Origin: Nymphaea colorata | Lineage: Eukaryota > Streptophyta > Magnoliopsida > Nymphaeales > Nymphaeaceae | Reading direction: 5' to 3' | NCBI RefSeq assembly: GCF_008831285.2 | Contig: NC_045144.1 | Location: 21,529,716-21,593,715, forward strand | DNA: 64,000 bases | Shown here: positions 6,891 through 63,560 of the stretch, in pieces | Layout: each line of letters opens with the position of its first letter | Position numbering within the stretch: position 1 is the first letter of the stretch | Program-made: the position numbers and the translations under genes | Notes under the pieces: model-generated | Seen by the model: the letters and a program-made list of their open reading frames with translations, nothing else | What the model was told of the DNA's origin: nothing | Database searches by the model: none

Positions 6891-7606
6891 TCAGGGATGA
6901 GAAGGTTTCAGTATGCTAGGGACACCGTGAGAATTCACGAATGCACCATACTCATTAAGACTGCAGCAACGTTGATAGCCGCAGCATCTTTCACTTGATA
7001 GACAGCACCAGTCGTTCGGGCAGCAGGTGTAACCAACGAGGCAGCATCTTTTAGAGGAGCAAACGGGTCCACAAACATAGTCGCCTCTTGCATTCTTTTC
7101 GTCTGCATCCATAGCCATAATGTTCAGGAAATTAAGTGTTTTGCCAATCAATTAGTCGAATGCATGTCTAGCTAGATGCGCAAATGGCAGAAGGTTGCAC
7201 ATGTATAGGTCACATTGAGTGACTCAAGCTGCCAAGCAGGTGGTCTGGTTAGTAGACTACTAGTCTTTTTGGATCGATTGATATTTTTTAGCCTAGTTAC
7301 TGGCGAAGAAACTACAACAATGACAACCCAAATGCATGTCAAACACCACTACTACAAGATTAACAACCACAAATTAAATCTGTCCTGGATCGATCGTTGG
7401 CTGCATCTTACTAAGCAACTGTCTCGTGAAGTTGCCTGTTTGACAGAAAGAGTATTGCGTGATCACCCAGCAGGGTGACATGTCCATTCTTCGTTTTGGA
7501 GGGAAATAACGAAAGACCAGCTAGAAACAGAAACATACCTTGTTTTTCAACCACAGAACGTGCAAAAGTCACAGAGAGCAGCAAGAGAAGGGCAAGAAAG
7601 AGGACG
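6891..7606 (-). pseudogene. Cys-rich peptide gene copy 1, exon 1 truncated
   Basis: Exon 2 (6891-7102) is intact and encodes all 12 cysteines with the family spacing: C-GPV-C-SSKR-CC-LVGYT-CC-PNDW-CC-LSSER-CC-GYQR-CC, then NEYGAFVNSHGVP. The acceptor TGCAG lies at 7103-7107 and the donor GTATG at 7534-7538, giving a 436-nt intron. Exon 1 (7539 to about 7606) keeps the hydrophobic signal core and V-V-E-K-Q, but the first six codons, the start ATG and the promoter are replaced by a plus-strand promoter from another copy. No in-frame ATG was found upstream, so I call it a pseudogene; a new upstream start or trans-splicing cannot be excluded. A polyadenylation signal (TTTATT on plus) is at 6811-6816. 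Its loop residues are the most divergent among the copies with all 12 Cys. Confidence 0.8.
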
Positions 7607-7621
7607 CGATCATCTCACTCC

Positions 7622-7629
7622 TATAAATA
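7622..7629 (+). promoter_or_regulatory. TATA box of orphan plus-strand exon 1
   Basis: TATAAATA lies 82 bp before the ATG at 7711. The flanking GATCGTTGAGAGGA and CATTCTGCACTC motifs match, in inverse orientation, the region upstream of copy 2. Confidence 0.7.
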
Positions 7630-7710
7630 GATCGTTGAGAGGATGACATTCTGCACTCTTCCAGTCATCCTCCATTAGTTGGTATTCACACGAACCAGTT
7701 GCTATCCACA

Positions 7711-7798
7711 ATGAAGCAAGTTTCACTTCCCGTCCTCTTTCTTGGCCTTCCCTTCCTGTTCTCTGTGGCTTTTGCAGGTAGTGAGGTTGAAAAACAGG
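7711..7798 (+). pseudogene. Orphan exon 1 of Cys-rich peptide gene, plus strand
   Basis: This 88-nt exon begins MKQVSLPVLF and encodes a 22-23 residue signal peptide ending S-V-A-F-A, then G-S-E-V-E-K-Q. It ends in phase 1 before the donor GTATGTTTC, exactly as in the other copies. Family similarity stops in the intron at about 7867 and no exon 2 follows before the TA repeat at 8393. The nearest plus-strand exon 2 is more than 11 kb away, beyond a gene in the opposite direction. It has its own TATA box, so it may still be transcribed, but it is unlikely to make the peptide. Confidence 0.75.
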
Positions 7799-7867
7799 GT
7801 ATGTTTCGGTTTCTAGCTGGACTTTCGTTACTTCCTCCAAAACAAAGAGTGAACATGTCACCCTGCT

Positions 7868-8390
7868 CATGAAATAGACATGCATCAATTCCTGCATGCC
7901 AAAAGTGATATTATTATGATGTATCATACATGGTATCTATTATGCCCATATGCATTACAAACACCATTTCTTTATGTTAGAAAGATTCATGCACATTTAT
8001 CTATGTCATACATAAAATATGATATGTCTACATGATGCCACTGTATATGCATTTGCTATTCACACACAAATCCTCTCAAGAATTAAACATGCATTCAGAA
8101 ACCTGCAAACATAATCTATCTTGTACATGATTCTCATGACGTTGGTATCCACCTGGTAGATGGAAATGAAATTTGAGGTCCTCCTTGGTTGTGTTGATTT
8201 ATTATGTTGTGTGCTTGTTTAATATTCTTCGTTAAAGTTGTTCCGGGTATGCCATTTCCAGACCTGAAACAGACGGAAAATAAACTTTAGATAGTATCAA
8301 ATGAATGAGTATGGAAAGAGCCCCCTTGCTGACTGGGATCACTGGTCATATAGTGAAACCCTTGGGTTGGCAAGGCAAAAACTGAGAATA

Positions 8391-8459
<69 letters not shown>

Positions 8460-8874
8460 AACACATAGAGGATACATTCAGGCATCTTTTGGCACCATGC
8501 CGCCGGCGGCCTTGCTGGCAGCCGGAGGTGCCTGCTGCATTTTATTCAGGATGTTGCAATAGCTTAGAAACCCTAAAAGGTCATTTGATTGCTGTCCATT
8601 GGGGCAGGACAGACAAGACGTCATGTCCATTACACTTCTGCCATGTCTTCATAGACAATGATGTTCCTTATCCACTATTTGATGACCTTAAAAATAGAAC
8701 ACTACGTTCTTTTTTTCCGCCATTTGTTTCGCATATGTCTGTAGAAGGTAAGAGAACCCTCATTTGGCAGGTAGACACCAATAAAAAGAATGGTAGAGGA
8801 GGAGAAAAATGGAGAGTGAGAAATACCAGAACATATACTTAGATAAGGATTTAACTTGTTTCGCATTTGCTTGG
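7868..8874. other. Spacer with a long AT dinucleotide tract
   Basis: An (AT)n run occupies 8393-8457. The remainder is AT-rich with no domain-bearing frame; the open frame at 8489-8842 on the plus strand resembles no known protein and continues into block R. Confidence 0.6.
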
Positions 8875-10435
8875 TTTTTAAATAGATGTTTTGGTCTTGC
8901 TGAAAATATATTTAGATAAGGATTTAACTTGTTTATAGTTGACCCGTATTAGTTGTTGCAAACATATTACTTATATCCAACTTATTTTGAAAATGAATAT
9001 TTTATGCTTCGCAAATTAATGAATTTGGATTTAGATCTATATGTTATAAAAATAAATATTTTATTGTAAATGGACTTGAACTTGATTTTAGAAATTGAAG
9101 GTTAAAAAGTTGTTTCTGCATTAGTTTTTTTAAATTTGAACTTATTTTAGATTTTTGAAAAAAGGCCTCAAATATTAGGGCCATTACAGTTTGGTATCAT
9201 TGTTGGTTTCGATCCTAGGACCTATGAGTTATGGGCCAACCACACTTCCGCTGTGAGTTATAGCATCAAAATTGTGAAAGTAGAAACCTCAGTTTTTTTA
9301 CAAAAATAAAACTAAATTTATGTTTATGAGCACAATAGGATGCTTATATTTTGTTTAAAATAGTTTCCACAGAAAATTAAAGTCACAGTGGCAAATCTGA
9401 GAATCAGACTTAGATCAATAGATGTCTGGGGTCATGGGCCTGAGAATTGACTCGTCAACTTGGCCATAAATTTTTATAGACTTGGAACAATAGATGGCTG
9501 GGATCGGTGGGTCTGAGAATTGACTCGCCAACTTGGCCATAAATTTTTGTAGTGCATTTTCAACGTAGTGAAATTTAATGTCTTCTCACCCAGCATAGAG
9601 CAACATGATCTCGATTATAACCATGAAGGATGTCATAGAGCAACAAGGGATAGTTATTTTCACCTTCTAACGCATCATTATATTTCGGCACCTCTTCATC
9701 CAACACGTTATCCTTTAACACATCTTTCGTCCATCATGTCTTCATCGTCTTGCATAAATAAACAATAAATCCTCCTCATTCTCTTTATATTCCAATTCAT
9801 AATTTGTGTCTGTCGTTGCAGAGAAATTTAGCTTCCATGCCGGATTAGACCCCATGGAGCTGCAACTTGGTTCCATACTTATAATAAAATGTTATTGTGA
9901 TCAATTGAGTAACAATTGGAGCATAAGAGGAAGTGTATATGTGAAAGCACTATTTAACTTCATAATCTTGGACATAATATGACTTGAAGAACAAAATGAC
10001 AATATTTTGAAGGATATCCACAACTTTTTATTTTTGTCCATATTCATCATAGCACACCTTTCCTTTTCTTGCAGAAAAGGAGAAGTCAGTGTGGGGCCTT
10101 GGTTGTTTGAAGGTGGAAGAGGCAATGTGGGGTTCCCCTTCATCCAGGGACCATTTCAACACCAAGAGAGAGAGAGAGAGAGAGAGAGGTGTGGGGTCAT
10201 AGTTGTTTGAAGGTATGTGTGTTATTGACAAAGAGGGCGCCCCATGCCCATGATATAGGAAAAATGAAACCCCTTACATACGTAAACAGTCAAAGCCAAC
10301 CAAAGCATTAAAGGCCAACCAACAAAATAATGTCATACGAGAGGAACTAGTTAATATTCAATTTTTATTTTACTCCTTAGGTTGTGCGTGGAATACCACC
10401 ATAGATCGGACTTCAAGAACTAAAATATTGGGAGG
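8875..10435. repeat. Noncoding duplicated block R, copy 2
   Basis: This is colinear with 3950-5260, including the phrases around ATCCTAGGACCTATGAG and the (GA)n tract near 10167-10189. An internal repeat of about 80 bp (CTTGGATCAATAGATG... type) occurs twice at 9400-9550. No gene is seen. Confidence 0.75.
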
Positions 10436-12639: not shown

Positions 12640-13317
12640 TCAACGATGAGAAGGTTTCAGTATGCTAGGCCTGCTAGGGACACAGTGAGCATTCACGAAT
12701 GCACCATACTCCTTAAGATCACAGCAAAGACGATAGCCGCAGCATGTGGCACCTGATTGGCAGCATGAAAAGCCCGAGCAGCAGGTCTCACCATAGGCGC
12801 AGCATCGATTATAGGGGCAACTGAGTCCACATTGAAGGTCGACTGTTGCATTCCTTTCGTCTGCATCCATAGCCATATGTTCAGGAAATTAAGTTTTTAG
12901 CCAACCAATTAATCGAATGCATGTCTAGCCAGATGCACAAGAGAGTGATATTTTTTAGCCTAGTTACTGGCGAAGAACCAAGGGTCCCTCCTCCCTCAGC
13001 TACCAAGCAGCATTATTGACTACCCAAATACATGTCAAACACCACTACTACAAGATTAACAACCACAAATTAAATCTGTCCTGGATCGATAATTGGCTGC
13101 GTATTGCTAAGCAACTCTCTCGTTAAAGTTGCCTGTCTGACAGAAAGAGTATTGCGTGATCACCCAGCTGGGTGACATGTCCACTCTTGGAAGGAAGTAA
13201 CGAAAGACCAGCTAGAAACGGAAACATACCTTGTTTTTCAACCAAAATACGCCCAAAAGCCACGGAGAGCAGCATGAGAAGGGCAAGAAAGAGGACACGA
13301 AGGGAAACTTGCTTCAT
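12640..13317 (-). CDS. Cys-rich secreted peptide, copy 2 (two exons)
   Basis: Exon 1 (13230-13317, 88 nt) begins MKQVSLRVLF and encodes a signal peptide with a Leu/Ala core, then R-I-L-V-E-K-Q. The donor is GTATGTTTCC at 13229; the 369-nt intron ends TGCAG before 12860. Exon 2 (12640-12860) restores a GAC codon across the phase-1 junction. The spliced protein is 102 residues. The cysteine domain is C-GLS-C-PYNR-CC-AYGET-CC-SGFS-CC-QSGAT-CC-GYRL-CC, followed by KEYGAFVNAHCVP: this copy has a 13th Cys in the tail, and its tail is three residues longer (SRPSILKPSHR). The unpaired Cys could permit dimerisation; that is inference. A polyadenylation signal lies at 12608-12613. Predicted to be secreted by its signal sequence; function unknown. 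Confidence 0.8.
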
Positions 13318-14094: not shown

Positions 14095-15119
14095 AAGGAA
14101 AGTTGGTAAATACCAAACCACTTAAATCAAAGACAAAAACCAGACTCACTTTGACGGCATTGTCCGTCACCAAAAGTTTGATATTGTGATGGATGGGCAA
14201 AACCGTTGGTATAACCAACGCAATATACAGATGAAAATGTCACCAATAAAGACATATTTATTATTTATAAAAAGATGCTTTCAAAATCATACTTGAAACT
14301 AGAGAATTTAGATTAGTACTATTTTAATTAAAAAATAAGCCAAAAACGGATGACATCTCTTTGCTTTGAGAGCTATCTAGCCAAACAACCACACAATAGT
14401 ACAACTCTCTCTCTCTCTCTCTCCGTATATATCTTTCTGAAAGCATGGACTTAAGGATCTCCAACCTACATGTCAAAGAACACACAGACGAAAACTATTT
14501 GTCATCCTCAAACCCGTCAGACGTGCTGTCCTTATTTCCCTCCTTTGTAGGAACAGCTCTCCCCCTTCTTTTCACAAACCAAATTATTACTAATCACCAC
14601 AGGCACAAAAAGTGAGTACCACCACCACCGCCACCACCCCGGCCACCGCCATCCTCGCCGCCACAAAAAATTTGCTACCAAGGTAAAATATGGTAGATGC
14701 ACACGTTTACTAATTGAAATTGGCAATAAATTACTTGTACCATTTAAGCACTAATATCAGAATTGTTATCAGGACTTTTGCATCCGGTAAGTCAGTGTTT
14801 ACATAAACAATGTGTATGGCAGGCTAGCAAATCTTAAAGGGATGGGTTCTTTGGTCATGAATGTTATGGTTATTTGATTATTATATTATAATGTATGCAG
14901 CCTTCAACAGTTCGCTGGTAAATCTGCCGTACTAGTAGTACTTAATTCGAAATGGAAAGCCATGAAGAGATGCTGCACAAGCCAACTAATGCATAGCAAG
15001 ATACATCTAACTAGGATGTTATTTAAAGAGAAGGTAGAAAAATTCACAACTTTTGTTAAAATAAAGAATGGCAGCTAAGAAAAACTTTTTTTTTCTTGAC
15101 AAAAATATAATACGCCACT
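13921..15119. other. Spacer, no gene seen
   Basis: It contains TA/GA microsatellites at 14055-14093, a CT tract at 14406-14423 and a short GCC/CCA-rich stretch near 14620-14665. No frame with a recognisable domain was found. Confidence 0.6.
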
Positions 15120-15722
15120 CTTTAGTTGCTTTCTGATCCATTTTTTCAAGGGAACCTCATAAAGAAAGAATTCATGATTTCGTATTGTAAATGCATTCCC
15201 ATAGTAATTCTCTATGCCGAAAAAGAGGTTGCGGATCTTATTGTTATCCCTCATGAGTGTGCGATGAAAAACCATTGAGTCCCAAGTGAATGGCTTTTCA
15301 TCCCATACTCAAGAGAGATTACAGCAACATCCATGACTTCTTTCTCCACAAACAATTAGTAGTGAGAATGCATTCACAAGATGACACCGTGAAATTTTTT
15401 TAAGAGGTACCATCTGAAAAAAGGTACAACAAAGGAACTAAAGAATTTTTACAGCACCATCTTGTGAATGCATTCTCACATGTAATTGCCTGTGCAAGAA
15501 AAGGTTGTGGATCTTGGTGTAATCTCTCTTAAGTATGCGATGAAAAACCATTGAGTCCTAATTCAATGATATTTCATGACATATTCAAGAGAGATTACAG
15601 TAACATCCACGACCTCTATTTTACAGACAATTACATATGAGTATGCATTCACAATATGGTATCATGTAAAATTTTTTATGATGAATCCTTTTAAAACAGG
15701 AATAATAAAGTAACTAAGGAAT
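15120..15722. repeat. Two adjacent long palindromes (foldback element)
   Basis: 15120-15443 is an imperfect palindrome about 324 bp long centred near 15282: CTTTAGTTGC at the left pairs with the right end near GGAACTAAAG. 15443-15722 holds a second, related palindrome centred near 15558. The two are direct repeats of each other at an offset of about 277 bp, sharing TGCGATGAAAAACCATTGAG. A partial third arm (GGTGTCATCTTGTAAATGC) follows at 15729-15750. It is typical of a foldback or long-TIR MITE without coding capacity. Confidence 0.7.
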
Positions 15723-17046
15723 TTTCATGGTGTCATCTTGTAAATGCATTTTGACGGGCAACTTCTATGTAGAAGGACAAGTTTTACAAGTTAAAATAAT
15801 ATGAAAAATTCATCGGTTTTTTTCTTGTCTCTCCTTATCTCCAATTTAGATTTAGATTTATATTTTATTCATATTTTTGGCAAGTCTCTCTTTCTCTATG
15901 TCACTTCATTCATGTTTCCCGTGAAGTATAATATTGTTTAGTCAAGCTCAAAATAAATAGTTTAAGATAGAATCTAATCACCCCAACCTTACTTATTTGC
16001 AAATTAAGCATTATAACAACTTGTAAACCAACTTAATTTATTAGTCTCTTTCTTAATTTTTATTTAACCATTTTTGGCTTATTAGTTTATTAGCAAATTA
16101 ACTTCTTAAATATTCTTCTTAAATGGCAAGGAACCACTTTGGAGGTTACTATATATATAATTCATCACCTGATGACGCTCACTGTTGCCGGAATGATCTC
16201 CTAGAAATTTAAAATTGCTGCCCTAGACATCGGAGAACCTTGATCTCCGAACCACCTAAAAATCCACCTAAAAATCTTGTGTGTTTTTTTATTCTTCTCC
16301 TTCATCTGCTTTTGATGTAGTGAATGAGAGAGAAAGGGAGAGGGCCTAGTTCCTAACATAAATGGGGTGCATACTTTAAGTTGGAAGTGTTCCCTCGCAC
16401 TATCTCTGATCACTCGGCACTCAGGATGGTGTAGTGTACCGTTCACTGAGAGTCCTTTTGTGGTTTCAAAGCTCTTCAAGGAATCACCCCATTGGGCAAA
16501 ACGCTAAAATTGCCAGTTATCACAGTCTCCTCGCTATTGATATGGATGAGAATGGAGGAAGTTTGTCTTGTGTGGGTTTTTTGGCAGATATATATATATA
16601 TATATATAGAATGTGCCACTGGCAGCAGCGGTCCTTCTCATTAATTAAGTTTTCTGTCCGTTTCTCTCTTGTATCACTAGCCACCACCCATTTCCCTCAT
16701 AAAAAAGACCTCACCATCATTAGCCTTCCCCATGGCGCTCTGTTTTCCACTAAGGCGGCTCACGCATACTCTCTCTCTCTTCCTATATGATCAGATGTCA
16801 TTCCTTGAAATTTGAATTCGTTTGGGTTTCATAATTAAATATCAAACTTTTTATCTCTTATTTTGAAAGGTTTATGTCAGATATGCAGTACAGCGCGATC
16901 CTACCCCACCCCATTGATGTTACAGGAAACACTCCAATTCAAACCCTTCCGCATTTATGTTGATGTTGCGTTTCCCTACGTTACAAATAGCAGTAAGCTT
17001 CGTAGAAGTGAGTAATCGACCACCAGCACCACCGATTGCATTATTT

Positions 17047-18060: not shown

Positions 18061-19182
18061 TGTCTACCATTCTTCAGTTCGAAATGGTATTAAAATGGGG
18101 CATGCCCCTACTGTATGTGATGCCCCTGCTGTATGTGAGATACATTCTCGTTTACAAAGCCAATAACTAACTACTTAAGCAAGCTGAGAATGGATCTAGG
18201 GGCGGAGGGAAGGGGGGACTTGCTTAGGCCGTGGCCCGGCCCTAACTAATTAAAAAAATATATATATACATTACAAAAATTAAAAATTGTTAATTGTGTA
18301 ATGTATTTTTTAGATTCGAGTTTAGTTTGGCCATACCCGGATAAGTTTATCCTAAAAAAAATCTTGGTTCTACCTATGCATGCATCTACTAGGCAACTAA
18401 AACCTAATTAGGCAAGCTGTGAATGACAATAATCTAAGGCATACAAAGCATACAAAAGGTCAAGCTGTTATGATATGTATCAAGCACAGGCAAGGGAAAT
18501 CAAAATAGATTAAGTAATAGAAGAGATAAGGAATGTAAACAGCTTTCAATAAGCAAGTAAAAATTTCGTGTAAAGCTGGAGAATTCTAACATAACTTAAT
18601 TACGCCTCACTAATCGAATTAAGTTCTTACCTAGTGAAGGTGCCATGGATGGTGGCTCTTTTGGCCAAACCACATATAGTGTATTTCCCTTTGTTTCTCT
18701 CTCTCTCTCTCTCTCTCTCTTCTTCAATCGATTTGCAGTTTGGTCCACCAGCTACGACTGGTGTGTTCCATTGTCCAAGCTAGCCATCAAAGACTTTTAT
18801 TGTGAGGAGCTGGAACCAAAGTGTAGTACCCACACCAGAACCAGGTCAATGGTGGTAGGCAGCAGCAGAAACACATATAGGCAGGTGGCCTACACCTGCC
18901 CCATAAAATCTCTTTACCTTTACGTTGATAGTCTTAGTCACACTTAAGAGGTGGGCAGGACTACAAATGGTATTTATTGCACGAAGGCAAGGGAAGCGGG
19001 GAGAGACGGCAAGGGAAGCGGGGAGAGACGGATTTTCTCCCCCTCTGCATCATCGCGCCTTTTACCATGCTCATTGGTATTTATTATCAAGCTTGTTGGT
19101 ATCTTTTATTATATATGGACTGCCATGTCTGCATTTCAAAATGCAGTCTGTGCGTTTTTCCTGATTATGGATATGGAGGCAG
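18061..19182. other. Spacer, no gene seen
   Basis: It contains a fragment rich in GGCGGAGGGAAGGGGGGAC near 18200-18240 typical of degraded plant transposons, a CT tract at 18698-18721 and a short direct repeat (GGCAAGGGAAGCGGGGAGAG) at 18986-19030. No exon 1 of the peptide family was found upstream of the exon 2 at 19183. Confidence 0.55.
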
Positions 19183-19340
19183 ATGAAAACGACGCGCGAC
19201 ATGAGGCTGGTGGATTTTCTTCTCGCTGCAGCTTCCTTAATTATGGTTGCGCCTTGGGCTGCCGAATTTGTACTGCTGCTCTGCGTTGGAGTAATGCTGA
19301 GTTCGTGAAAGCTCAAGGTCATGTACTCCCTCCCAACTGA
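19183..19340 (+). pseudogene. Divergent plus-strand exon 2 of the peptide family
   Basis: The acceptor context CTGATTATGGATATGGAGGCAG matches the 3' end of the family intron, and the exon begins DENDAR like other copies. The end, AEFVKAQGHVLPPN, aligns with the family tail E-Y-x-A-F-V-N-x-H-x-V-P. The middle is shortened and keeps only four cysteines (C-x6-C-x3-C-x2-C) instead of twelve. The frame is open to a TGA at 19338. No exon 1 lies nearby. It is either a decayed copy or an old paralogue with a different fold; I favour decay. Confidence 0.6.
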
Positions 19341-24371: not shown

Positions 24372-25412
24372 TCAGTTTGCAATGGATGCTATCCTGCTAG
24401 GGACAGCGTGAGCATTCACGAACGCAGTATACTCCTCAACATTGCAGCAAAGAAGATGGCCGCAGCATCTCTGACCTGATCGGCAGCATCCAGTGCCGGA
24501 GCAGCAGCTCTCACCATATCCGCAGCATCGACCATTGTGGCAACTGACTCCACAAAGAAGATCGCCTGTCGCTTGCTTTTCGTCTGCATCCGTAGCCATA
24601 ATGATCAAGAAAGTGGTCAGCCAATCAATAAATCTCATGCATGCCTAGATGCACAAATGGCACAATACTGTGGACTGGGTGCATCATAAGTAACTCGAGT
24701 AAGTGGTCCGGTTAATACGACTATCGAAGTGTTTGGATGCATGGAATTTTGCCTCCAAAACATTCTTTGTTTTTTAGCTTTCTTGGGCGGTTTGGAAACA
24801 GATTTTTCAGAAACATTGGTTTCACTTGTCAAAAAGGTGGTTTACGTATTAGCAACTAAACAAACTACCACCATAGGTTATCCTCCCAAAGCCAGTTTTT
24901 ACCAAACCACCCAAGGTAGATCTGCGCATGTTACTAAGATGGCAGCAGGTCTATTTTTTTGGTTCTTCAAGAAAATTAGCCTCAGGAGAGAGTATAGCTA
25001 AGCAAGATAAGTCTGATACAAGCAGAAAACTCTAACAAGCATACATGTATCATTGTGCATACCGATCTTCGTGCTCATGTGCATGTGCATGTGTGGTTTG
25101 CATTAGAGAGATAGAGAAATCTGGAGAAGAGGTATTGATCAGATCACCACTACTTTAACAACAACCAAAAATTTGTTCTTGTCGGCGTCTCATCAAGCAA
25201 CTCTACCATGCATGCAGTGGGCAGTTCGACGCCAACCAGCTGCTTGACGTGATCTAATCTACTTTTTCTTTTGCTTTTGGTGTGGAGAGAGGAGAGAAGA
25301 AAAAGAAGACTAAAAAAGGAAACATACTTTGTTTTTCTACCACATCTGCCGAAGCTACAGAGAGCAGCAAGAGAGCGGCAAGAAAGAGGACGGAGAAGGA
25401 AGCTTGCTTCAT
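24372..25412 (-). CDS. Cys-rich secreted peptide, copy 3 (two exons)
   Basis: Exon 1 (25328-25412, 85 nt) begins MKQASFSVLF and gives a signal peptide ending S-V-A-S-A, then D-V-V-E-K-Q; it is one codon shorter than in other copies. The donor GTATGTTTCC is followed by the longest intron of the family (744 nt), ending TGCAG at 24584. Exon 2 is 24372-24583. The junction codon is AAC, so Asn replaces the Asp of copies 2 and 4. The 98-residue product has C-GVS-C-HNGR-CC-GYGES-CC-SGTG-CC-RSGQR-CC-GHLL-CC and the tail EEYTAFVNAHAVP. Twelve Cys, even number. An intact TATA box lies 72 bp upstream and a polyadenylation signal downstream, so this copy looks functional. Confidence 0.85.
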
Positions 25413-33966: not shown

Positions 33967-34717
33967 TCAGTTTGCTAGGGCAGCTGTCCTGCTAGGGACG
34001 GCGTGGGCATTCACGAACGCATCATACTCGTTAAGATCGCAGCAAAGAAGATGGCCGCAGCAGGTTTGACCTGATCGGCAGCATCCAGTGCCGGAGCAGC
34101 AGCTCTCACCATATCCGCAGCATCGACCATTGTGGCAACTGACTCCACAAATAATATCGCCTGTTGCAGTCTTTTCGTCTGCATCCATAGCCATAATGAT
34201 CAGAAAATTAAGTGGTCAGCCAACAAATTAATCGAATGCATGTCTAGCTAGATGCACCAATGGCACAATATTGCATATATATAGTTCAGGTCGACACTCA
34301 TACTGCCAAGCAGGTGGTCTCGTTAGTAGACTACTAGTCTTTTTGGTACGGTTGATATGTTTTAGCCTAGTTACTGAAGAAAAACCAAGGGTCCCTCCTC
34401 CCTCATTTCCCAAGCAGCATTAGTGACTACCCAAATGCATGCCAAACACCACTACTACAAGATTAACAGCCACAAATTAAATGTGTCCTAGATCGATCGA
34501 TCGTTGGCTGCGTCTTGCTACGCAACTCTGTCGTGAAGCTGCCTGTTTGACAGGAAGAGTATTGCGTGATCACCCACCAGGGTGACATGTCCACTCCTCG
34601 TTTTCGAGGGAAGCGAAACGGAAACGTACCCTGTTTTTCAACCACACTACGTGCAAAAGCCACAGAGAGCAGCAAGGAAAGGGCAAAAAAGAGGATGGGA
34701 AGGGAAACTTGCTTCAT
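33967..34717 (-). CDS. Cys-rich secreted peptide, copy 4 (two exons)
   Basis: Exon 1 (34630-34717, 88 nt) begins MKQVSLPILFF and ends A-R-S-V-V-E-K-Q; the donor is GTACG at 34629. The 451-nt intron ends TGCAG at 34179, and exon 2 is 33967-34178. The junction gives GAC (Asp). The 99-residue product has 12 Cys: C-GVS-C-HNGR-CC-GYGES-CC-SGTG-CC-RSGQT-CC-GHLL-CC, tail NEYDAFVNAHAVP, end SRTAALAN. Exon 1, promoter, intron and flanks resemble copies 1 and 2, whereas exon 2 resembles copies 3, 5 and 7, so this gene looks mosaic. The TATA-like box is CATAAATA. A polyadenylation signal is at 33888-33893. All expected parts are present; function unknown, secretion inferred. Confidence 0.85.
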
Positions 34718-37277: not shown

Positions 37278-37361
37278 CCTGTTTTTCAACCACACTACGT
37301 GCAAAGGCCACAGAGAGCAGCAAGGAAAGGGCAAGAAAGAGGAAAGGGAAACTTGCTTCAT
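37278..37361 (-). pseudogene. Orphan exon 1, peptide gene copy 8
   Basis: This 84-nt exon starts with ATG and MKQVSL, but a 4-nt deletion relative to copy 4 shifts the frame after Leu6. The donor GTACG is kept. The TATA-like box CATAAATA is at 37443-37450. No exon 2 follows, since the duplication junction lies 93 bp into the intron. It cannot make the peptide but might still be transcribed into the neighbouring element. Confidence 0.8.
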
Positions 37362-40887: not shown

Positions 40888-41674
40888 TCAGTTTGCAATG
40901 GATGATATCCTGTTAGGGACAGCATGAGCATTCACGAACGCAGTATACTCCTCAACATTGCAGCAAAGATGGTAGCCGCAGCATCTCGGTACCGGAGCAG
41001 CAGCTCTCACCATATCCGCAGCATCGACCATTGTGGCAACTGACTCCACAAAGAAGATCGCCTGTCGCCTGCTTTTCGTCTGCATCCATAGCCATAACGA
41101 TCAGGAAAGTGGTCACCCAATCAGTAAATCGCATGCATGTCTAGATGCAAGAATGGCACAATACTGTGGACTGGGAGGTCACATACGTAACTCGAGCAAG
41201 TGGTCCGGTTAATATGATTGTGGGCATGTTTGGATGCATGCTAGGAAAGGCATTTTGCCTCCAAAACATTTGGATACAAGTAGAAAACTCTAAGGAGCAT
41301 ACATGCATCATTGAGCATACCAATCTGCGTGCTCATGTGCATGTGCGTGTGTGGTTGCATTAAGAGAGATAGAGAGATCTCGAGAGGAGGTTTTGATCGG
41401 ATCACCACTACTTAAAAAACAACCACAAGTTTGTTCTTGTCGGCCTTTCATCAAGCAACTCTATCATGCATGCAGTAGGCGGTTCGACGCCAACCAGCTG
41501 CTTGACGTGATCTAATCTACTTTCTCTTCTTTTTTTTGGTGGGGTAAGGTGTTGGAGAGAGGAGAGAAGCAAAAGAAGACTAAAGAAGGAAACGTACTTT
41601 GTTTTTCAACCACATCACTTGCCGAAGCTACAGAGAGCGGCAATAAAGAGGACGGAGAAGGAAGCTTGCTTCAT
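40888..41674 (-). pseudogene. Cys-rich peptide gene copy 5, multiply broken
   Basis: Exon 1 (41598-41674) starts MKQASFSVLF like copy 3 but has lost 11 nt in the hydrophobic core (with a compensating 3-nt gain near the signal end), so the frame runs into TGA at codon 20. Exon 2 (40888-41079) has a net 20-nt deletion between the third and fourth CC pairs, which shifts the tail out of frame. The upstream region has also lost about 55 bp that in copy 3 holds the TATA box. Splice sites (GTACG donor, TGCAG acceptor) survive, and the intron is 518 nt. Three independent lesions make this a clear pseudogene and the closest relative of copy 3. Confidence 0.9.
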
Positions 41675-43598: not shown

Positions 43599-44047
43599 TC
43601 AGTTTGCAAGGCCTGCTCTCCTGGCAGGGACAGCGTGAGCATTCACGAACGCAGTATACTCCTCAACGTTGCAGCAAAGAAGGTGGCCGCAGCATCGCTG
43701 ACTTGGTCGGCAGCATCCAGTACCGGAGCAGCAGCTCTCACCATATCCGCATCCAAGACCACCGGGGCACGGCCTCCACATGAGAATATCGCCTGTCGCT
43801 TGCTTTTCGTCTGCATCCATTGCCATAATGATCAGGAAAGTGGTCGGCCAATCAATTAATCACATGCATGTCTAGATGCACAAATTGCACAATATTGTGG
43901 GTGCACCAACAAGTGGCATGCTCATGTGCATGTGCGTGTGTGTTGCATTAGAGAGATTAAGAGATCGGGAAATGCGGTATATATCGGATCAACTATATCA
44001 TGAAGTTGCCGGTTCGACGCCAATAACATCGCCAACTGCGTGACGTG

Positions 44048-44091
<44 letters not shown>

Positions 44092-44215
44092 TTTGGTAGA
44101 GTTGGTGGGAGATAGAGTTAAACATACTTTGTTTTTTAACCCCATCACTTGCCAAAGCTACAGAGAGCAGCAAGAGAAAGGCAAGAAAGACGATGGAGAA
44201 GGAAGCTGTCTTCAT
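43599..44215 (-). CDS. Cys-rich secreted peptide, copy 6 (10-Cys variant)
   Basis: Exon 1 (44128-44215, 88 nt) begins MKTASFSIVF and ends L-A-S-D-G-V-K-K-Q. The donor is GTATG and the intron is the shortest of the family (317 nt, with a (TA)n tract). Exon 2 is 43599-43810; the junction codon is AAC. The product is 99 residues. The frame is open, but the domain starts DILMWRPCPGGLGC: the first Cys has become Met and the third Cys has become Gly, leaving ten. The change comes from a 1-nt insertion compensated by a nearby 1-nt deletion, plus substitution of the third Cys codon. The remaining CC pairs keep their spacing (CC-SGTG-CC-RPSQR-CC-GHLL-CC). The 3' flank lacks the proximal polyadenylation signal; a distal one lies at 43457-43462. 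It could be a functional variant or an early stage of decay. Confidence 0.7.
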
Positions 44216-48970: not shown

Positions 48971-49481
48971 TCAGTTTGCAAGGGCTGCTGTCCTGCTAGG
49001 GACAGCGTGAGCATTCACGAACGCAGCATACTCCTTAACATCGCAGCAAACAAGATGGCCGCAGCATGTCTGACCTGATCGGCAGCATCCAGTACCGGAG
49101 CAGCAGTTCTCACCATATCCGCAGCAATAACCATTGTGGCAACTGACTCCACAAGAAATGTCGCCTGATGCATTCTTTTCGTCTGCATCCATAGCCATAA
49201 TGATCAGGAAAGCGTCAGCCAAGCAATTAATCACAAGCATGTCTAGGTGCACCAACCAGTGGCATGTTCATGTGCATGTACGTGTGTGTTGCATTAGTGA
49301 GTTAGAGAGACCTTCAGAGGCGGTTAGATCGGATCACCCAGCTGGTCACTACCCAAATATCAAACACCATTACTTTAACAACAACCACAAATTTGTTTTC
49401 GTCGGCGTCTCATCAGGCAACTCTATAAAGCAGTTGCCAGTTCGACGCCAATAACGTCTCTCACACACACACACACACACA

Positions 49482-49545
<64 letters not shown>

Positions 49546-49690
49546 TTTTTTGGTAAATGGGGTGGGAAATGTAGGAGGGAAGCTAAAGGAAGAGTATCAT
49601 ACTTTGTTTTTCAACCCTATCACTTGCCAAAGCTACAGAGAACAACAAGAGAAAGGCAAGAAAGACGACGGAGAAGGAAGCTGTCTTCAT
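48971..49690 (-). CDS. Cys-rich secreted peptide, copy 7 (two exons)
   Basis: Exon 1 (49603-49690, 88 nt) begins MKTASFSVVF and ends L-A-S-D-R-V-E-K-Q; the donor is GTATGATACT. The 420-nt intron contains CA/TA microsatellites and ends TGCAG at 49183. Exon 2 is 48971-49182, with an AAC junction codon. The 99-residue product has the complete framework: C-GVS-C-HNGY-CC-GYGEN-CC-SGTG-CC-RSGQT-CC-GHLV-CC, tail KEYAAFVNAHAVP, end SRTAALAN. Exon 1 is closest to copy 6, and exon 2 is closest to copies 3 and 4. A polyadenylation signal is at 48896-48901, 70 nt after the stop. All parts look intact. Confidence 0.85.
49459..49548. repeat. CA/TA microsatellite inside intron of copy 7
   Basis: (CA)n then (TA)n tracts, about 55-140 bp from the splice donor; copy 6 has a pure (TA)n tract at the equivalent position. 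Confidence 0.9.
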
Positions 49691-51583: not shown

Positions 51584-51596
51584 ATCTCCCCTTCAA
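51584..51596 (-). other. Polypurine tract of copia element
   Basis: On the minus strand TTGAAGGGGAGAT abuts the 3' LTR. The pol stop codon TGA (51593-51595) overlaps it. Confidence 0.85.
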
Positions 51597-54500
51597 GTTG
51601 GTGCGCAGATATCAATCTGCCCCAACTTGTTAACAATATATCTATGTCGTTCCTTCCCAAGAGACTTAGTAAAAATATCTGCCAATTGGTATTCGCTCTT
51701 CACATGTGGCGTCTGAATTGTTCCATCTTGAATTTTTTCTCTAATGAAGTGACAATCAACTTCAATATGCATTGTGCGTTCATGATAGACAGGATTTGCT
51801 CCAATGTATATAGCTGCCATATTATCGCACATAAGTTTCATTGGCTCTTTTACTTCAATATTCATGTCTTTTAGAATAGCTTTCATCCATAGCAATTCAC
51901 AAGTACATGCCGCCATAGCTCTATACTCTGCTTCGGCACTTGATCGGGCTACAACAGATTGTTTTTTGCTCTTCCATGTAACTAAGTTGCCACCAACAAA
52001 TGTGCAAAATCTAGAAGTAGACCTTCTATCATTTGGGTCGCCAGCCCAATCGGCATCAGAGTAGCCTACCACATCAATAGGCTGATCACGTTTCATCAGA
52101 ATACCCTTTCTTGGGGAGCCCTTTAAGTATTTTAGTATTCTATTTGCAGCATCAACATGTGTAGATCTTGGCTTATGCATATACTGGCTCATAGTACTAA
52201 CAGCATGAGTAATGTCTGGCCTGGTTACTGTCAAATATATAAGTTTGCCAACAAGTTTCTGAAAGCTTTGGATGTTCTTTACTTCTGTTCCTTCGTCCTT
52301 TCTTAACTTGCAATTTTGTTCAAGAGGTGTGTCCGCAGTTCTGACACCCAAGTGCTTTGTCTCTTTTAGAAGATCTAAAGTGTACTTTCTTTGACATAGA
52401 AACACACCCTTGTCTGAATGAGCAACTTCTATCCCCAAGAAGTACCTCAACTTTCCAAGATCCTTGATCTCAAATTGTTTGTTGAGATATTTTTTTACAT
52501 GAATCATAAACTCCTCATTATCACATGTCATAATGATGTCATCTACATACATAAGTAGAATAGTTATTTTTGAATCTCGAATACATGTAAACATAGTATA
52601 ATCCGCAACACTTCTCTTAAAACCAATACTAACAAGAGCATCACTTAGTCGAGAAAACCATGCTCTTGGAGATTGTTTTAGACCATAAAGTGCTTTTTTC
52701 AATTTGCATACATACCCTTTTTCATTGGATATTCCCTGCGGTGCTTCCATGTAGACATCTTCATCAAGTTTTCCATGTAAAAAAGCATTCTTAACATCTA
52801 GTTGAGTTAGGTTCCATCTTTTGTTTGAAGCCACAGATATAAGAGTTATAACTGTGTTCATCTTAGCAACAGGAGCAAACATTTCATTGTAATCAATCCC
52901 TTCAGTTTGAGTAAAACCTTTTGCAACCAAACGAGCCTTATACCGTTCTATGGTGCTATCACTGTGATATTTTATTTTATAAACCTACTTGCATCCCACA
53001 GTTTTCTTCTCCTTCGGCAGAGGAACCAAATCCCTAGTCTGATTTTTATCTAATGCTGAAAGTTCTTCCATCATGGCTTGTTTCCATTGTAGATGTTTGT
53101 TAGCCTCTTCATAGGTTTTGGGTTCTTGGTGAGTATAAGTGTTTAAGATATAGCATCGATAAGGTTTAGACATGGTCTCGAATGTCAGGTACTTATCTAT
53201 AGAATGATCATGGTTGGTTGATAGGTATGTATAAAAATCACTAAGTCTAGATGGAGGTCTAGTAGGACGAGTGGAACGGCGAAGAAGTTGATTTTCTTGG
53301 TTAGGTTCACTAGTTTGGATAGGTTCAAGGATAGAATTGGTGGGTGAAGGCTGGTTTTCCATAATAGATTTGGAAGTCGAGGTAAAAACATCCACTAAGA
53401 GAAGAACAATGTTATCATTGTATGCCATGATTCCATCTCCATGGGCGTGTGCCTCCCCCTGATTTGCTTTCTCATAGAATGACTCATGTTCAAAGAATTT
53501 GACATCTCTGGTCACAAACAATTTTTTCAAAACTGGCTCATAACATTTGTAGCCCTTTTTCTTGCTGAAATACCAAAAAAAAATACACTTCATTGCTCGT
53601 TTCTCAAGTTTATTTCGAAATTTTTCCTGAATATGAACGAAGCATTTACACCCAAACACTTTAAGATGTCGTATATAAATAGGCCTCTGCAGTAGGAGTT
53701 CCAAAGGAATTTGATTTTCAACACTTGAGTTTGGTATTCGATTGGCAAGATAACATGCTGTACCAATAGCATCAGACCAAAAATTTTGGGGAACATGCAT
53801 ATGCATCATGATAGATCTAGCAATATTTAGTAGCTGACGATTTTTTCTCTCTGCAACTCCATTTTGTTGTGGAGTGCCTGCACACGTGTATTGAGGTTGT
53901 ATACCATTTTTCCTCATGAAATTGCGAAAGGAATCATTCACATATTCCCCCCCATTGTCAGACCTAAGATTTTTAATTTTGGTCCCATACTGAGTCAATA
54001 CCATATAATAGAACTCTTCAAAAACAGCAAGCACTTCACTCTTATTTCTAAGAAAGAAAATCCATAACATACGGGTTTTATCATCAATAAATGACACATA
54101 GTACCTGTAACCATTATACGATTCCATAGGAGCAGGTCCCCATACGTCTGAGTGAACCAACTCGAATATCTTGGTGGAACTTTCAGTGGAGGTATGAAAT
54201 GGTAGCCTGGTAGACTTAGAGAATTCACATGCGTCACAAGAATGTTCTTCTAGAGTGAGATGAGGGACCAAGGTCTTCAAGCTTTGATTAGCAATATGAC
54301 CAAGTCTAGCGTGCCATGTGAGGTACTCTTTATTCTTCATGCTTGTACAAGTAAAAAAACTCACTCCAAAGTTCTCCATCACATATAGACCATCTTGCTC
54401 TCGACCCCTACCAATCACTTTCTTCGTTTGGAAGTCCTGAAAAATCACATCCTTTGGAGAGAAAATTGCCACACAGTTATAATCATTAGTGATTTTGCTA

Positions 54501-55930
54501 ACATACATTAAATTGGTAGAGATTCTTGGCACATAGAGAACACTAGATGTCTTATGATTTGTAAAAAAATTGGTTTTTCCAATCCCAGCCTGAAAAATCA
54601 CATCCTTTGGAGAGAAAATAGCCACACAGTTATAATCATTAGTGATTTTGCTAACAGACATTAAATTGGTAGAGATTCTTGGCACATAGAGAACACTAGA
54701 TGTCTTATGATTTGTAAAAAAATTGGTTTTTCCAATCCCAGTGACAGCTATAGTGGTACCATCAGCAGTAAACACTGGTTTTTTATTTCCTCTATCAAGA
54801 TCGACTAACTTAAGAGGATCATTGGTCATATGATCAGTTGCCCCAGAATCGATAACCCATAAAGGAGACTTTGCTTGAGTAAATAAAGCATGGTTATTAC
54901 CTTCAGTAGATGATCCAACTGGTTGACTTGAGACGAGGTTGGTTTTGGAGAAATGCTGAAAAAAATTTTCTAAGTCATCCTTGGTAACAAAGTGTGCAAG
55001 ATCTGCCTGATTTGAAGAGATTGTTTTCTCCTTTGTGGGCTTGCCGACAAGTTCCCAACACTTCTCATGAGCATGACCAACTTTCTTGCAATACGAACAC
55101 CGCAACTTGCTGCGATTTCTAGTATTTGTATTTGTCTGGTTTCTATGCTCCACCTTATAAGTGGGTTTTTCAGGTCGAGTGAAGTATGCCATTCCTTCAT
55201 GTTTACCTTCGTTAGCAAGACACACCATTCGTTCTTGAGTCCCTTCATTAATCTCATCTTTGGACGTGACATTCATAACTTTCCTGCGTGCGTCCTCCCT
55301 CTGGATCGCTTGACATACTTCATTAAACTTCAGCAGTGGCTTAGTCATGAGAATCTGACTTCTAAGGCTTTCATAGTCAGTTCCGAGTCCTGCGAGTACT
55401 TTAAACACTTTATCTTCCTCAAATCTCTGCTTGTAAACCTCCGGATCAGAAGCGGCTGGTCGATATTGTAGTAGTTCATCATAGAGACAACGCAATTGAT
55501 TTAAGTACAGATGAGTTTGTTTTCCTTCTTTCTGCAGATTCACAATTTCAAGTTGTATTTGATACACCCGAGCTAAATTGTTCTACTGGCCATACATTTC
55601 TTTCAAAGTATCCCATACGCTTTTGGCTGTTTCCTGATATAGAAACAGATTTGCAATTGATGGTTCCATGGAATTCATCATCCATGACATAACCATGTCA
55701 TTCTCCGATTGCCATTCATCAAATTTGGGATCAGATGGAAGAGGAGCCATGATTTTTCCATTAATATAGCCGATCTTTGAACGTCCGCTCAAGAATAAAC
55801 GAACTGCTTTTGCCCAACTCAGATAATTTGTTTCATTCAAGAAAACAATAGTAATCTTTATCGTACCTTGGTCATGGTTCCCACTCTTAAAGCTGTTTGG
55901 CGAATCTCCAATAGAGTGAGTTGTCGCCAT
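51593..55930 (-). pseudogene. Copia gag-pol polyprotein with two amber stops
   Basis: The start ATG is at 55928-55930 in an ACCATGG context. Residues 1-115 are gag N-terminus (NYLSWAKAVRLFL), then a TAG at 55583. The frame continues (55567-52985) with the rest of gag, a zinc knuckle C-x2-C-x4-H-x4-C near 55061-55099, protease D-S-G near 54850, the H-x4-H...C-x2-C integrase N-domain, the integrase core D-x62-D-x35-E, and the start of reverse transcriptase, ending at a TAG (52985) where the family has Trp in the motif before V-Y-K-I-K. The third part (52930-51593, 445 codons) has reverse transcriptase with Y-V-D-D and RNase H with S-D-A-D-W-A-G and L-A-D-I-F-T-K. All three parts are in one frame, so only the two stops break it. 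Confidence 0.9.
54436..54741 (-). repeat. 153-bp in-frame tandem duplication in gag-pol
   Basis: 54436-54588 and 54589-54741 are direct repeats exactly 153 bp apart, each encoding 51 residues starting GIGKTNFFTN and ending KDVIFQ. They lie between protease and the integrase zinc domain. The only protein difference noted inside the repeat is Ser versus Tyr in NLM(S/Y)VSK. Confidence 0.95.
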
Positions 55931-60369: not shown

Positions 60370-60590
60370 TGTGTCCTCATAAAAAATAACTTTTCCGTTT
60401 ATACAGTTTGCTAATTTTTAAAATAACTTTTCCGTTTATACAGGTTGCTAATTTTTAGAGCTTGGAAGAAGACCATGCTTCAATGCACTTGTACGCCTTC
60501 AACACATTTTCTTATTATAAAATGCGGCCTTCTCATAATATGTAGTCCTCATCCTATTGCTATTTTCTAAATCGATTTTTCTTGGATTCA
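60370..60590. repeat. Inverted fragment of block T
   Basis: Reverse complement of the end of block T (30790-30930); an internal 35-bp phrase (ACTTTTCCGTTTATACAG) is duplicated here. Confidence 0.7.
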
Positions 60591-61475
60591 AATAGTTGGA
60601 CATGTTCATCTCGCATAACTTATTTTTGCTTTCATGAGTGTAATAATCAATTATTATGGCAATTAAGAAGATCCAGAGTGCTATGGCAGAGAGGGGTGGT
60701 CCTTCCGCTTCCACAAGAAGAAAAGGATATTGAAATAGACATGCTGCAGAAATGGTGATACTGTTTGGCATGGCTCCTGTCGGCCCCCTTCCCTCTGCCC
60801 CCCTGCCTACACAAGAGTGAGAATGGACTCACAAGAAGATGCAAATGCTGAATGAAATAGTTCGAACGGACATAACACCAAACAAACACCGAACAGAATG
60901 AACATCATGTTTTCTTCCTGTCAAACAATGGACAAAAACTGTTAACATCACATCAAGCCTATCCTGTACCAAAGAACCTCATGAATATGAGTTCGAGTAC
61001 TCGATTTGGTAGCTTGCCTTTAAGTAACTCGATCTAAGCACATAAAAGGCAGTTATATAATATTGAAACTCGATCTAAGCACATAAAAGGCAGTTATATA
61101 ATATTGAAACTGATGTTTCTAACCGATAAAAATGATTTCCTGTCCAGTAAATCGCAAGTGACAAGGACCGTACGTGACAACCCAATCTCCAGCTTCTGGA
61201 CCTAGTGGGCCTATTTTGCCACAATAGGAGACACAATTTTCTGGGAAAGGGATATATATATAATTTCACGGCCTTCTCCCACATGGAATGCCAATTCCCA
61301 TTGAAAATAACATTTTCAATAGAAAATTATTCTCCTTCAAAGAACTTGACAAAATTTCAACCACTAGCTTTTTTATCTTGTAGGTCTAATAAGATCGAGC
61401 TGCAAATTGATTCAGATGGGGCCCAGATCTAAGTTATATAATATATAGAAAGTGATATTTTGAACCAATATATGC
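60591..61475. other. Spacer, no gene seen
   Basis: A 37-bp direct repeat (CTCGATCTAAGCACATAAAA) lies at 61028 and 61068. No coding region recognised. Confidence 0.5.
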
Positions 61476-61476
61476 A

Positions 61477-61652
61477 CATTGTATCTTAATTCATTAAATT
61501 GCAAGCAACAGGGAGGTTGACATCGCGGTCTTTGGCTTTTGGTATCATTGGCTCCAAGTCTTCATGGATTAGGACCTCCAATGTTACCCAAAGCCAAAAA
61601 TGGGATGTCAATTTCCTTATTGCTTGCAATTTAATGACTTAAAAACAATGGT
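61477..61652. repeat. Long hairpin, about 75-nt arms (MITE or miRNA-like)
   Basis: The left arm from CATTGT at 61477 pairs with the right arm ending ACAATG at 61652. The innermost 17 bp of the outer stem (61492-61508 with 61620-61636) pair perfectly, and the pairing continues with few mismatches through TTGACATC and TTTGGCTTT to CATTGG around a loop of about 26 nt. On the plus strand several mismatched positions are G:U. It could be a foldback MITE or a small-RNA precursor; sequence alone does not decide. Confidence 0.6.
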
Positions 61653-63099
61653 ACCGTTAATGTGTTAAACGTTACCGATGTCCAAGGTGTGTCGTTGAAA
61701 AGGGCACTAGCAATGTTTGGAGCGAATATGTCAATTAAATTAGTGCTTTACCGACTTGTGATGCTTGCGTCTGTAATATTTCGATTGAGATACTTTCAAT
61801 GACGCTTACGTCGATAAAAACTACACTAATACATGTACCTTTTACCGATGATTGCAACTGGACGTTGGTAATTTTCAACGACGAGAAGTTTCATGCGATA
61901 ACGTTAATGCGTTGGAAAAACTAGCCTTTTTTTCACTTTTACCAACATTCAACACCAGATGTCGTTAAAGTTACTACTTCGACGACATAATAGCTCTACA
62001 CAAAAATGAGCTATTAATTAGAAATGGAACTGTTAATAGCTTTCACTCGTTTTTTATTTTTTATTGTTAGTTTTTAGCAAAGAGAAGATTAGAAATGGAA
62101 CTTAGTATTTGCGAACCTTTCCTACTTTGAAAACTACACTGCCATTTTTACGAGAATAATCGTATGTTGGCTGTCTTGGAAAAAACATGAGTTCAAAATC
62201 GTGGGTGCCACACTATACTACCCAGTTGTTTGTTCTTTTTTTTATTTGCCGTTGTCAAATTTATCTTTTGGTTTTGCATCTCGTCAAATATACAATACTT
62301 GATGTTGAATAGTATGTTTTCACGAGGTCTTATTCAAATAGCTGTCAAGTAAGTGGTCGTATTCATACTGCCCTTTAAGTGAATAGTAGTACTCTATTTC
62401 ATCTCCGACTTTCAGCTTACAATTTTGTTTTCAACATTACCTAATTTACTATGTCTTAGATGACAATTTTGTGAACTTTTTCTGCAACATCGAACGGTCA
62501 TTGAATTTTTACTGATTTAAGAATTTTAAATTAAAAAAATTGATTTTAATGACCATACAAAAATATTTAGGTGCTTATCTACCAATATGCACAAATTGGG
62601 CACGTTTGATTGCTAGGATTGTGTACCCTAGTGTGTGTGTGAGAGAAAGAGAGAGAGACGCTGAGAGGCAACAATAGAGGGGAGAAGAAGAAAAAAAGGA
62701 AGAAAGGGCAAAAATACCTAATGATATGTTACATTGATAATCTGATATCCACGGTACATGAGGTCATCTGCACCTCATGCTTATAAGGTCGTATACTTTC
62801 CCATGCAGCCTTACATTTTCATTGTTTTTTTTTTGTATTTTGATTAGTAATGTAATAGAGTTTTAAGATCCGTTACTAAGATCCAAATCTACTCAGGATC
62901 TCACTATTCACATTGTTTAATGCTTCTCCTTTTTTCCATTAATGTACATACCGTTTTTTTTTTGTCAACAAAGATAATGGAGCCTAAACTCTCAGGAGCT
63001 CTTTATTGGAAATTTTTAATTATTAAATAATGGGAACAATGGAAGAAAATGTGAAAATACCTAATCTAGCTCAGGCTCCATCGACCATGAATGGTGCTT
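61653..63099. other. Spacer with direct repeat copy, no gene seen
   Basis: 61640-61980 is rich in TTACCGATG/CGTTGG-type words like 21410 and 36400. 62360-62635 is the second copy of the 270-bp direct repeat; a GA tract is at 62640-62660. Confidence 0.5.
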
Positions 63100-63475
63100 G
63101 TTGTCCACAGACCATGTTAAAGAAGGGAGTTATACAATTGTAGACCCGAGATTTGGCGGTGTTGATCGCAATCCCCAGTTAATTATTTGTGATGTAGGGC
63201 GTCCCAGCATCCCGTTCTCTGATGCAGTCCTGACCAGCAAAGGAGGGCGGCTTTCTTAGTTGTTTAGTCGAAGACGCAAGCTTCATCTATACCTAATGGA
63301 GATGACATTCTACCTACATAATGGAGATGACATATTTTACCTCACTGATGAGATGATGTACATGGTAGATCTATTAATAAGTCTCAGGTCACGCCTATAA
63401 ATAGATGACGGAGGAGGTTTCATTCTGCAGTGCACTCATCCAGCCTTTCTTCACCAATTGCAGTTGGCATTTACA
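63100..63475. other. Upstream region of the right-edge peptide gene
   Basis: 63100-63395 is related in part to 59200-59400 (AGCTTCATCTA, GAGATGATG(C/T)ACATGG), upstream-block sequence in reverse orientation. A 24-bp phrase with AATGGAGATGACAT is tandemly repeated at 63296 and 63320. Confidence 0.5.
63396..63403 (+). promoter_or_regulatory. TATA box of the right-edge peptide gene
   Basis: TATAAATA, 80 bp before the ATG, in a CCTATAAATAGATGACG context resembling that at 7620-7640. Confidence 0.8.
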
Positions 63476-63560
63476 ATGAAGGGAGTTTCCCTTCCAATCA
63501 TCTTTCTTGCCTTTCTCTTGTCCTCTATGGCTTTTGCACGTACACTATATGAGAACAAGA
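63476..63560 (+). CDS. Exon 1 of a plus-strand Cys-rich peptide gene
   Basis: This 85-nt exon begins MKGVSLPIIF, encodes a signal peptide ending S-M-A-F-A, then R-T-L-Y-E-N-K, and stops in phase 1 before the donor GTATGTTTCA, as in the other copies. It is the most divergent intact exon 1. At least 440 nt of intron follow to the window edge; family introns are 317-744 nt, so exon 2 should lie just beyond. It has its own TATA box and a CATTCTGCAGTGCACTC motif like the other promoters. Confidence 0.75.

Follow-up and report, generated by a model that had tools for sequence, protein, structure and literature searches.

Class II glycine-rich proteins (GRPs), such as AtGRP3, NtTLRP, and CrGRP/Crip21, carry a canonical motif of six cysteines (Cys) that ends in C-x2-CC, and they bind a receptor kinase or are sensed by a receptor. 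Granulins (PF00396) contain 12 Cys in the consensus order C, C, CC, CC, CC, CC, C, C, which pair as 1-3, 2-5, 4-7, 6-9, 8-11, and 10-12, and the GASA/snakin peptides, which are also secreted plant peptides with 12 Cys, have a single CC pair. Class II GRPs are defined by a signal peptide and a Cys-rich C-terminus, and their glycine (Gly) repeats are of the type [GG(X)3GG]n (excerpt of PMC5852109). In coffee, class II-like GRPs with 12 cysteines (CaContigs 1089, 3317, and 10126), differentially expressed after arachidonic acid treatment, are described next to other class II GRPs whose Cys number six to 10 (excerpt of a 2011 expressed sequence tag paper, PMC3045888). Plant granulins are in all cases fused to a protease and have two more Cys (excerpt of PMC4527844). 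Here, we analyzed a stretch of 64,000 nucleotides (nt) of Nymphaea colorata, C7:21529716-21593715 of a 408-Mb assembly (hereafter, the window), which contains a tandem array of genes for predicted secreted peptides with 12 Cys. These peptides are probably an offshoot of a larger family with a GRP-type Cys tail (hereafter, the GRP-tail family), acting as secreted, disulfide-stapled wall or defence peptides.

The window contains 11 loci of the 12-Cys peptide gene, five with an open frame and six broken, a count given in an earlier note on this DNA and borne out by the exon 2 copies, the exon 1 copies, and the spliced models. These loci are the following (window positions):

6891-7608, minus strand: g1, broken gene; exon 2 (7102-6891) open, 12 Cys; exon 1 reduced to a remnant (7608-7539) that lacks start codon and promoter
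7711-7798, plus strand: lone exon 1 in head-to-head orientation to g1; upstream TATA-type box at about 7622; exon 2 not found by motif scan
12640-13317, minus strand: g2, open gene; exon 1 13317-13230, intron 13229-12861, exon 2 12860-12640; 12-Cys frame and a 13th Cys in the tail
19167-19340, plus strand: degenerate exon 2; EADEN start and EFVKAQ-type tail kept, Cys frame lost
24372-25412, minus strand: g3, open gene; exon 1 25412-25328, exon 2 24583-24372; 12 Cys
33967-34717, minus strand: g4, open gene; exon 1 34717-34630, exon 2 34178-33967; 12 Cys; group A intron, group B-like exon 2
37278-37361, minus strand: lone exon 1; 4-nt deletion; exon 2 not found by motif scan
40888-41674, minus strand: g5, broken gene; 11-nt deletion in exon 1, deletion and frameshift in exon 2; frame lost
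43599-44215, minus strand: g6, open gene; exon 1 44215-44128, exon 2 43810-43599; 10 Cys, 4 CC pairs
48971-49690, minus strand: g7, open gene; exon 1 49690-49603, exon 2 49182-48971; 12 Cys; structure predicted
63476-63560, plus strand: lone exon 1; post-signal sequence ARTLYENKS resembling 4-8-Cys relatives; no exon 2 in a motif scan of the window and of 2.5 kb beyond it

Exon 2, the Cys exon, exists in seven copies, every one on the minus strand, in addition to the degenerate plus-strand copy. Exon 1, which encodes the signal peptide, was detected in 10 copies by nhmmer, and three of them have no recognisable exon 2 nearby in a motif scan of the window. The likeness between copies is not due to chance, because inter-copy matches reach E 3e-48 and all twelve Cys positions are kept even between exon-2 proteins with only 51% identity. 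An inversion junction beside 7609 cuts off exon 1 of g1, which accounts for its missing start codon, and the plus-strand lone copy (TATA box, then exon 1) starts beside it. The array pattern described in the earlier note, i.e., duplication, inversion, pseudogenes, and fixed spacing, was found again in these loci.

The gene plan is uniform. In seven of seven two-exon copies, the predicted donor reads AAACA(A/G)(A/G) before the junction and GTAYG after it, the predicted acceptor GATGCAG before the junction and ACGAA after it, always in phase 1, and the introns measure 317-744 nt. Long TA/TG runs lie within the introns of g7 (about 49460-49530) and g6 (44050-44095). The models of the five open copies run from an ATG start, through GT-AG phase-1 junctions, in an open frame to a TGA stop, and a TATA-like sequence is located 68-89 bases upstream of the start codon in all five. 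Judged by eye, their exon 1 is hydrophobic and ends in a small-x-small type site (AFA, AFG, ASA, ALA), and, on the same basis, the N-terminal signal peptide that defines class II GRPs is present. The two-exon design proposed earlier (signal exon, phase-1 intron, one Cys exon) thus holds; its 12-Cys frame holds for four of the five open copies but not for g6, in which a local compensated frame change removed the first and third Cys.

The spacing C-3-C-4-CC-5-CC-4-CC-5-CC-4-CC is common to 10 of 10 distinct 12-Cys exon-2 proteins and places 10 of the 12 Cys in CC pairs, within a 37-residue core. At the scale of the assembly, exon 2 is present at 21 loci, all on C7 (20 loci in 21 rows of a protein search, and one broken locus added by a second query). 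All 12 Cys are kept at 18 of them (13 outside the window and five inside), two are frame-broken in exon 2, and one has 10 Cys. Keeping 12 Cys does not equal being a working gene: g1 has no start, and in a copy at 7.89 Mb the third codon of exon 1 is a stop. A single exon-2 protein is encoded by four copies at 21.499-21.517 Mb, spaced about 5.9 kb, another one by five copies at 21.73-21.88 Mb, and that of g3 has a protein-identical counterpart at C7:20136083 (L011).

Searches of Pfam and NCBIfam with five exon-2 proteins, and of PDB sequences with 12-Cys proteins, returned nothing significant, and no significant match to a characterised family with the same spacing was found in these three databases. 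The best PDB rows, inhibitor-knot peptides at E 0.12 or worse, were taken as chance CC matches, and the Pfam rows YxzE (E 0.0059, 18 bits for a cut-off of 40), WLS-like_TM, and conotoxin were dismissed as far below their cut-offs. No Pfam match to the GASA domain was obtained for the window proteins, whose spacing is also unlike the single CC pair of GASA/snakin. No named plant family with the 12-Cys frame turned up in titles and abstract openings of the literature, and the tail motif strings had no match in the published papers searched. The label of an apparently undescribed family, used in the earlier note, is only partly right, and as worded it is not supported on two counts. Genes of C7 with 4, 6, or 8 Cys share the promoter, signal exon, junction, and tail of the window genes, their 4-Cys members including class II-like GRPs; and class II-like GRPs with 12 cysteines have already been reported from coffee (PMC3045888), although these may consist of two motifs of six Cys each and not of a CC ladder.

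A DNA query made of the promoter and exon 1 of g4 has at least 41 matches in the assembly, which reach up to 72-86% identity outside the 12-Cys genes. Among them are a further cluster, at C7:20.03-20.25 Mb, and a single place on C13; promoter identity was tested among the C7 and C13 genes. We examined 17 stretches from these matches and 15 more from a protein search with a relative. Many of them display a similar signal exon, a phase-1 junction, an exon 2 that starts with D-E/D/N/K, and a tail of the type CC-xxx-E(Y/F/H), and differ in the middle. The complete plan of the GRP-tail family (promoter, exon 1 most often of 88 nt, phase-1 junction, exon-2 start, and CC-xxx-EYxxFV tail) is also that of the window genes. 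The 4-Cys relatives include (e.g., L044, L054, L086) secreted-type proteins in which Gly- and tryptophan (Trp)-rich repeats are followed by C-x3-C-x4-CC, within the ending C-x3-C-x4-CC-SAxEY. In the 6-Cys relatives (L043, L048, L055, L063, L084), other stretches precede the Cys part. The 8-Cys relatives L047 and L092 have the pattern C-x2-C-x5-CC-x3-CC-x3-CC, as does L091 when counted from its exon start. Gly-rich repeats are found in L044, L052, L054, L086, L087, L093, and L079-L082. Members with each of these Cys numbers, 4, 6, 8, and 12, occur within about 2 Mb of one contig. Some promoter and signal exon matches have no recognisable exon 2 (e.g., L042 on C13 and L045 at C7:20.126 Mb), and the first exon of L051 has lost its donor. 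The promoter and signal exon cassette seems to have been copied on its own, at L042 and L045 as well as at 7711, 37361, and 63476 in the window.

Other contigs hold members of related aspect. The Gly/Tyr-rich genes arrayed at C2:1.478-1.542 Mb (L079-L083, L094) each have a single or a double C-x3-C-x3-CC-SAxE(Y/F) module, L079 and L080 having two such Cys-tail modules per protein, and the first exon of one C2 gene is also of 88 nt and in phase 1. On C11, L089 (C11:9857400-9859700) is an open frame of 325 residues in which nine modules of type CHHYCGHKCCSAEEYAEFVKKGAEDMHGG follow one another in tandem, an expansion of the 4-Cys tail. A Gly/Trp-rich 4-Cys relative was also found at C12:8867444-8867527 on the minus strand (E 1.3e-9).

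The link between these relatives and the 12-Cys genes was examined in two ways. In the first one, a profile restricted to 15 relatives with 4-8 Cys was run against 2138 stop-to-stop segments of the window, and the seven window Cys exons took ranks 1-7 (E 7e-8 to 0.066; next 1.1). When Cys was masked in both model and targets, the degenerate plus-strand copy joined the seven exons to fill the top eight ranks (E 0.0084 to 3.9; next 7.9). Since this masked ranking still puts the window exons on top, the link rests on more than cysteines. The second one was a tree of promoter and exon 1 (26 rows, midpoint root), which leaves out g1, near-identical copies, lone exons, L010, L042, L045, L056, the C2 and C11 genes, and the relatives without a first-exon model (such as L063, L084, L088, L091, L092). 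The 11 rows of the 12-Cys group, among which the 10-Cys g6 and the broken g5 are counted, fall on a single branch (89/90), three 8-Cys genes are on a separate branch (99/94), and the Gly/Trp-rich 4-Cys genes lie across the midpoint from the 12-Cys group. The 4-Cys genes need two changes. The cores themselves also correspond: the opening of the 12-Cys core matches the 4-Cys pattern (CGVSCHNGRCC vs. CRYRCYYGRCC), and its last pair resembles that of 6-Cys relatives (CCGYLLCC-DLNEY vs. CCGYFCC-SAEEY), which places the extra CC pairs between the two. As judged from sequence, the 12-Cys genes are one branch of the GRP-tail family, the one richest in Cys, and not an isolated new family.

Like AtGRP3, NtTLRP, and CrGRP/Crip21, the window genes encode a signal peptide and a Cys-rich C-terminal part, in which the 12 Cys are spaced differently from the six of the AtGRP3 type, and Gly repeats occur in same-genome relatives that share their gene plan and tail. 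The GRP profile PF07172 has four matches in the whole genome, two of them over the cut-off (the C2 array, and C13:12810919 only with its neighbours in frame). At C2:1498547 it scores 31.2 bits, above the cut-off, in a match that crosses one stop, and on L054 of C7 it scores 27.4 bits, below the cut-off of 30.

Several results weigh against deriving the 12-Cys peptides from this family. PF07172 matches neither the five window exon-2 proteins nor two spliced ones, long Gly repeats, including [GG(X)3GG]n, are absent from the 12-Cys proteins, and the C-x2-CC ending of the canonical class II motif differs from C-x3-C-x4-CC. Three of the seven exons ranked by the profile carried composition corrections of 25-30 bits, and their single-domain E-values were weak (0.097, 3.1, and 420); the E-values obtained with masked Cys are weak one by one. 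The 6-Cys genes do not form one group in the tree, and the direction from 4 to 12 Cys depends on the midpoint root. A 39-nt internal duplication inside the Cys core, which is expected under a stepwise gain, is suggested only weakly (p 0.012 to 0.44 in ten related genes). Finally, the AlphaFold model of g7, a ladder of short strands, is of low confidence (mean predicted local distance difference test 65.8, predicted template modeling score 0.44), and the excess of amino-acid changes reported below for some copies is not significant over silent changes in any of five pairs (p 0.056 to 0.38).

The copies themselves have changed in different ways. Introns divide the genes into two groups, with 85-94% identity within A and 61-71% between A and B, the L009 intron standing apart (75-81% to group A, 57-73% to B). 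Exon 2 of g4, L013, and L009 is 86-90% identical to that of the group B genes g3 and g7. This mismatch between intron and exon 2 suggests that exon 2 has been exchanged or homogenised between intron backgrounds. Among g1, L012, L017, and g2, amino-acid-changing divergence (dN) is 1.75-3.55 times intron divergence in five of six pairs (p 0.021 to 5e-7 vs. intron) and 0.45 times in the pair g1-L012. Between g4 and g3, g7, L009, or L013, it is 0.13-0.33 of intron divergence. The loops of one subgroup look diversified, those of another conserved; an older exchange of exon 2 could also be the source of the raised ratio in g1, L012, L017, and g2.

Besides the array, the window contains a Copia-type retroelement polyprotein in two long open stretches (51593-55582, minus strand) and, near its start, an integrase-like fragment of another retroelement (864-1400, plus strand), both judged by eye. 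An imperfect palindrome of about 600 bases with internal repeats (15119-15750; 72% identity to its own reverse complement) may be a mobile element of the hairpin type. No match was obtained when the window was scanned for Rfam families and tRNAs.

From the definition of class II GRPs and the response of the coffee 12-Cys GRPs, we infer an apoplastic, disulfide-stapled wall or defence peptide, secretion, disulfides, and role alike. Across the family, most members of which lie on C7, the promoter, signal exon, phase-1 junction, and tail CC-x-x-x-EYxxFVxAxxVP stay constant and the middle differs. The C-x3-C-x4-CC opening is retained in the 12-Cys members, where four more CC pairs follow at spacing 5-4-5-4. 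In the scenario that we favor, CC pairs would have been gained stepwise (4, 6, 8, 12 Cys), with loss of the Gly-rich part. Tandem duplication, exon-2 exchange between copies, and formation of pseudogenes would have followed. Once the peptide is secreted, its twelve Cys would form six disulfides in a stacked-hairpin ladder of granulin order, a rigid core that would display variable loops in the apoplast or the wall. Such a wall or defence peptide may act as a ligand or as a direct antimicrobial, and a ligand of a cell-surface receptor is slightly preferred; the role in defence or reproduction proposed in the earlier note is likewise an inference.

A purely antimicrobial family, in which the Cys ladder would be a protease-proof scaffold whose variable loops hit microbes with no receptor involved, is the best of the alternatives, even if rather unlikely. 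It agrees with the tandem array, the copy turnover, the fixed Cys and variable loops, the signal exon, and a dN that exceeds intron divergence within part of group A, and some GRPs are antiviral, antibacterial, or antimicrobial according to a note on a dodder GRP (PMC8096328). However, the mature peptides predicted for g2, g3, g4, and g7 are close to neutral rather than strongly basic (K+R of 9, 6, 6, and 6 vs. D+E of 7, 7, 8, and 7), and the conservation of the tail across members with differing middles fits a shared partner. We consider it improbable that the array is decaying without current function, all copies being remnants. Six of the 11 window loci are indeed broken, the 7.89-Mb copy has its exon 1 stop, and dN is close to silent divergence in many pairs, but 18 of the 21 exon-2 loci retain the full set of 12 Cys in an open exon 2, and the dN of g4 against L009, L013, g3, and g7 is low compared with intron divergence. 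Still less credit can be given to a secreted metallothionein-like peptide, whose vicinal thiols would bind Cu, Zn, or Cd in the vacuole or apoplast: the richness of the 37-residue core in CC pairs speaks for it, whereas the signal peptide routes the protein through the oxidising endoplasmic reticulum, the fixed spacing and the strand ladder of the model fit disulfides, and the 4-Cys relatives with Gly repeats give no hint of metal binding.

The comparison with granulins deserves a closer look. The 12-Cys proteins follow the granulin order (two single Cys, four CC pairs, two Cys), except that the final two Cys are adjacent, their C-terminal CC-x5-CC-x4-C is granulin spacing, and the g7 model, whose confidence is low, was paired with the granulin 6cku in a structure comparison. 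The window loops are shorter, and sequence likeness is not significant: PF00396 was not matched in Pfam, at E up to 10, by any of five exon-2 and four spliced 12-Cys proteins, in a search where HMMER filters drop weak matches, and the only PDB granulins listed, with E 3.9 and 7.9, came from the search with the most granulin-like member and were not among the matches listed in the other PDB searches. The loss of Cys 1 and 3 in g6, a possible sign of the granulin 1-3 disulfide, was not counted, because one local frame change removed both. A true stand-alone plant granulin family, homologous to animal or plant-protease granulins, is thus very improbable, as homology to the 4-8-Cys GRP relatives already explains the origin of these free-standing genes, and known plant granulins are the protease-fused proteins with two extra Cys of PMC4527844, according to its excerpt.

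Under the favored derivation from the GRP-tail family, we tentatively suggest, as a possibility that goes further, that a plant lineage independently built a free-standing granulin-like ladder from the Cys tail of a GRP by repeated addition of CC pairs, and may use it as diversifying apoplastic ligands with fast-changing loops and a constant tail. The origin of new disulfide-rich peptide scaffolds is rarely visible; here, apparent intermediates between a GRP tail and a 12-Cys ladder are found in one genome. Their common promoter and signal exon would make the order of the steps, the folding of each of them, and the change of function directly testable. In this way, an apparently orphan peptide array would be tied to the class II GRPs, a family with known receptor-linked roles.

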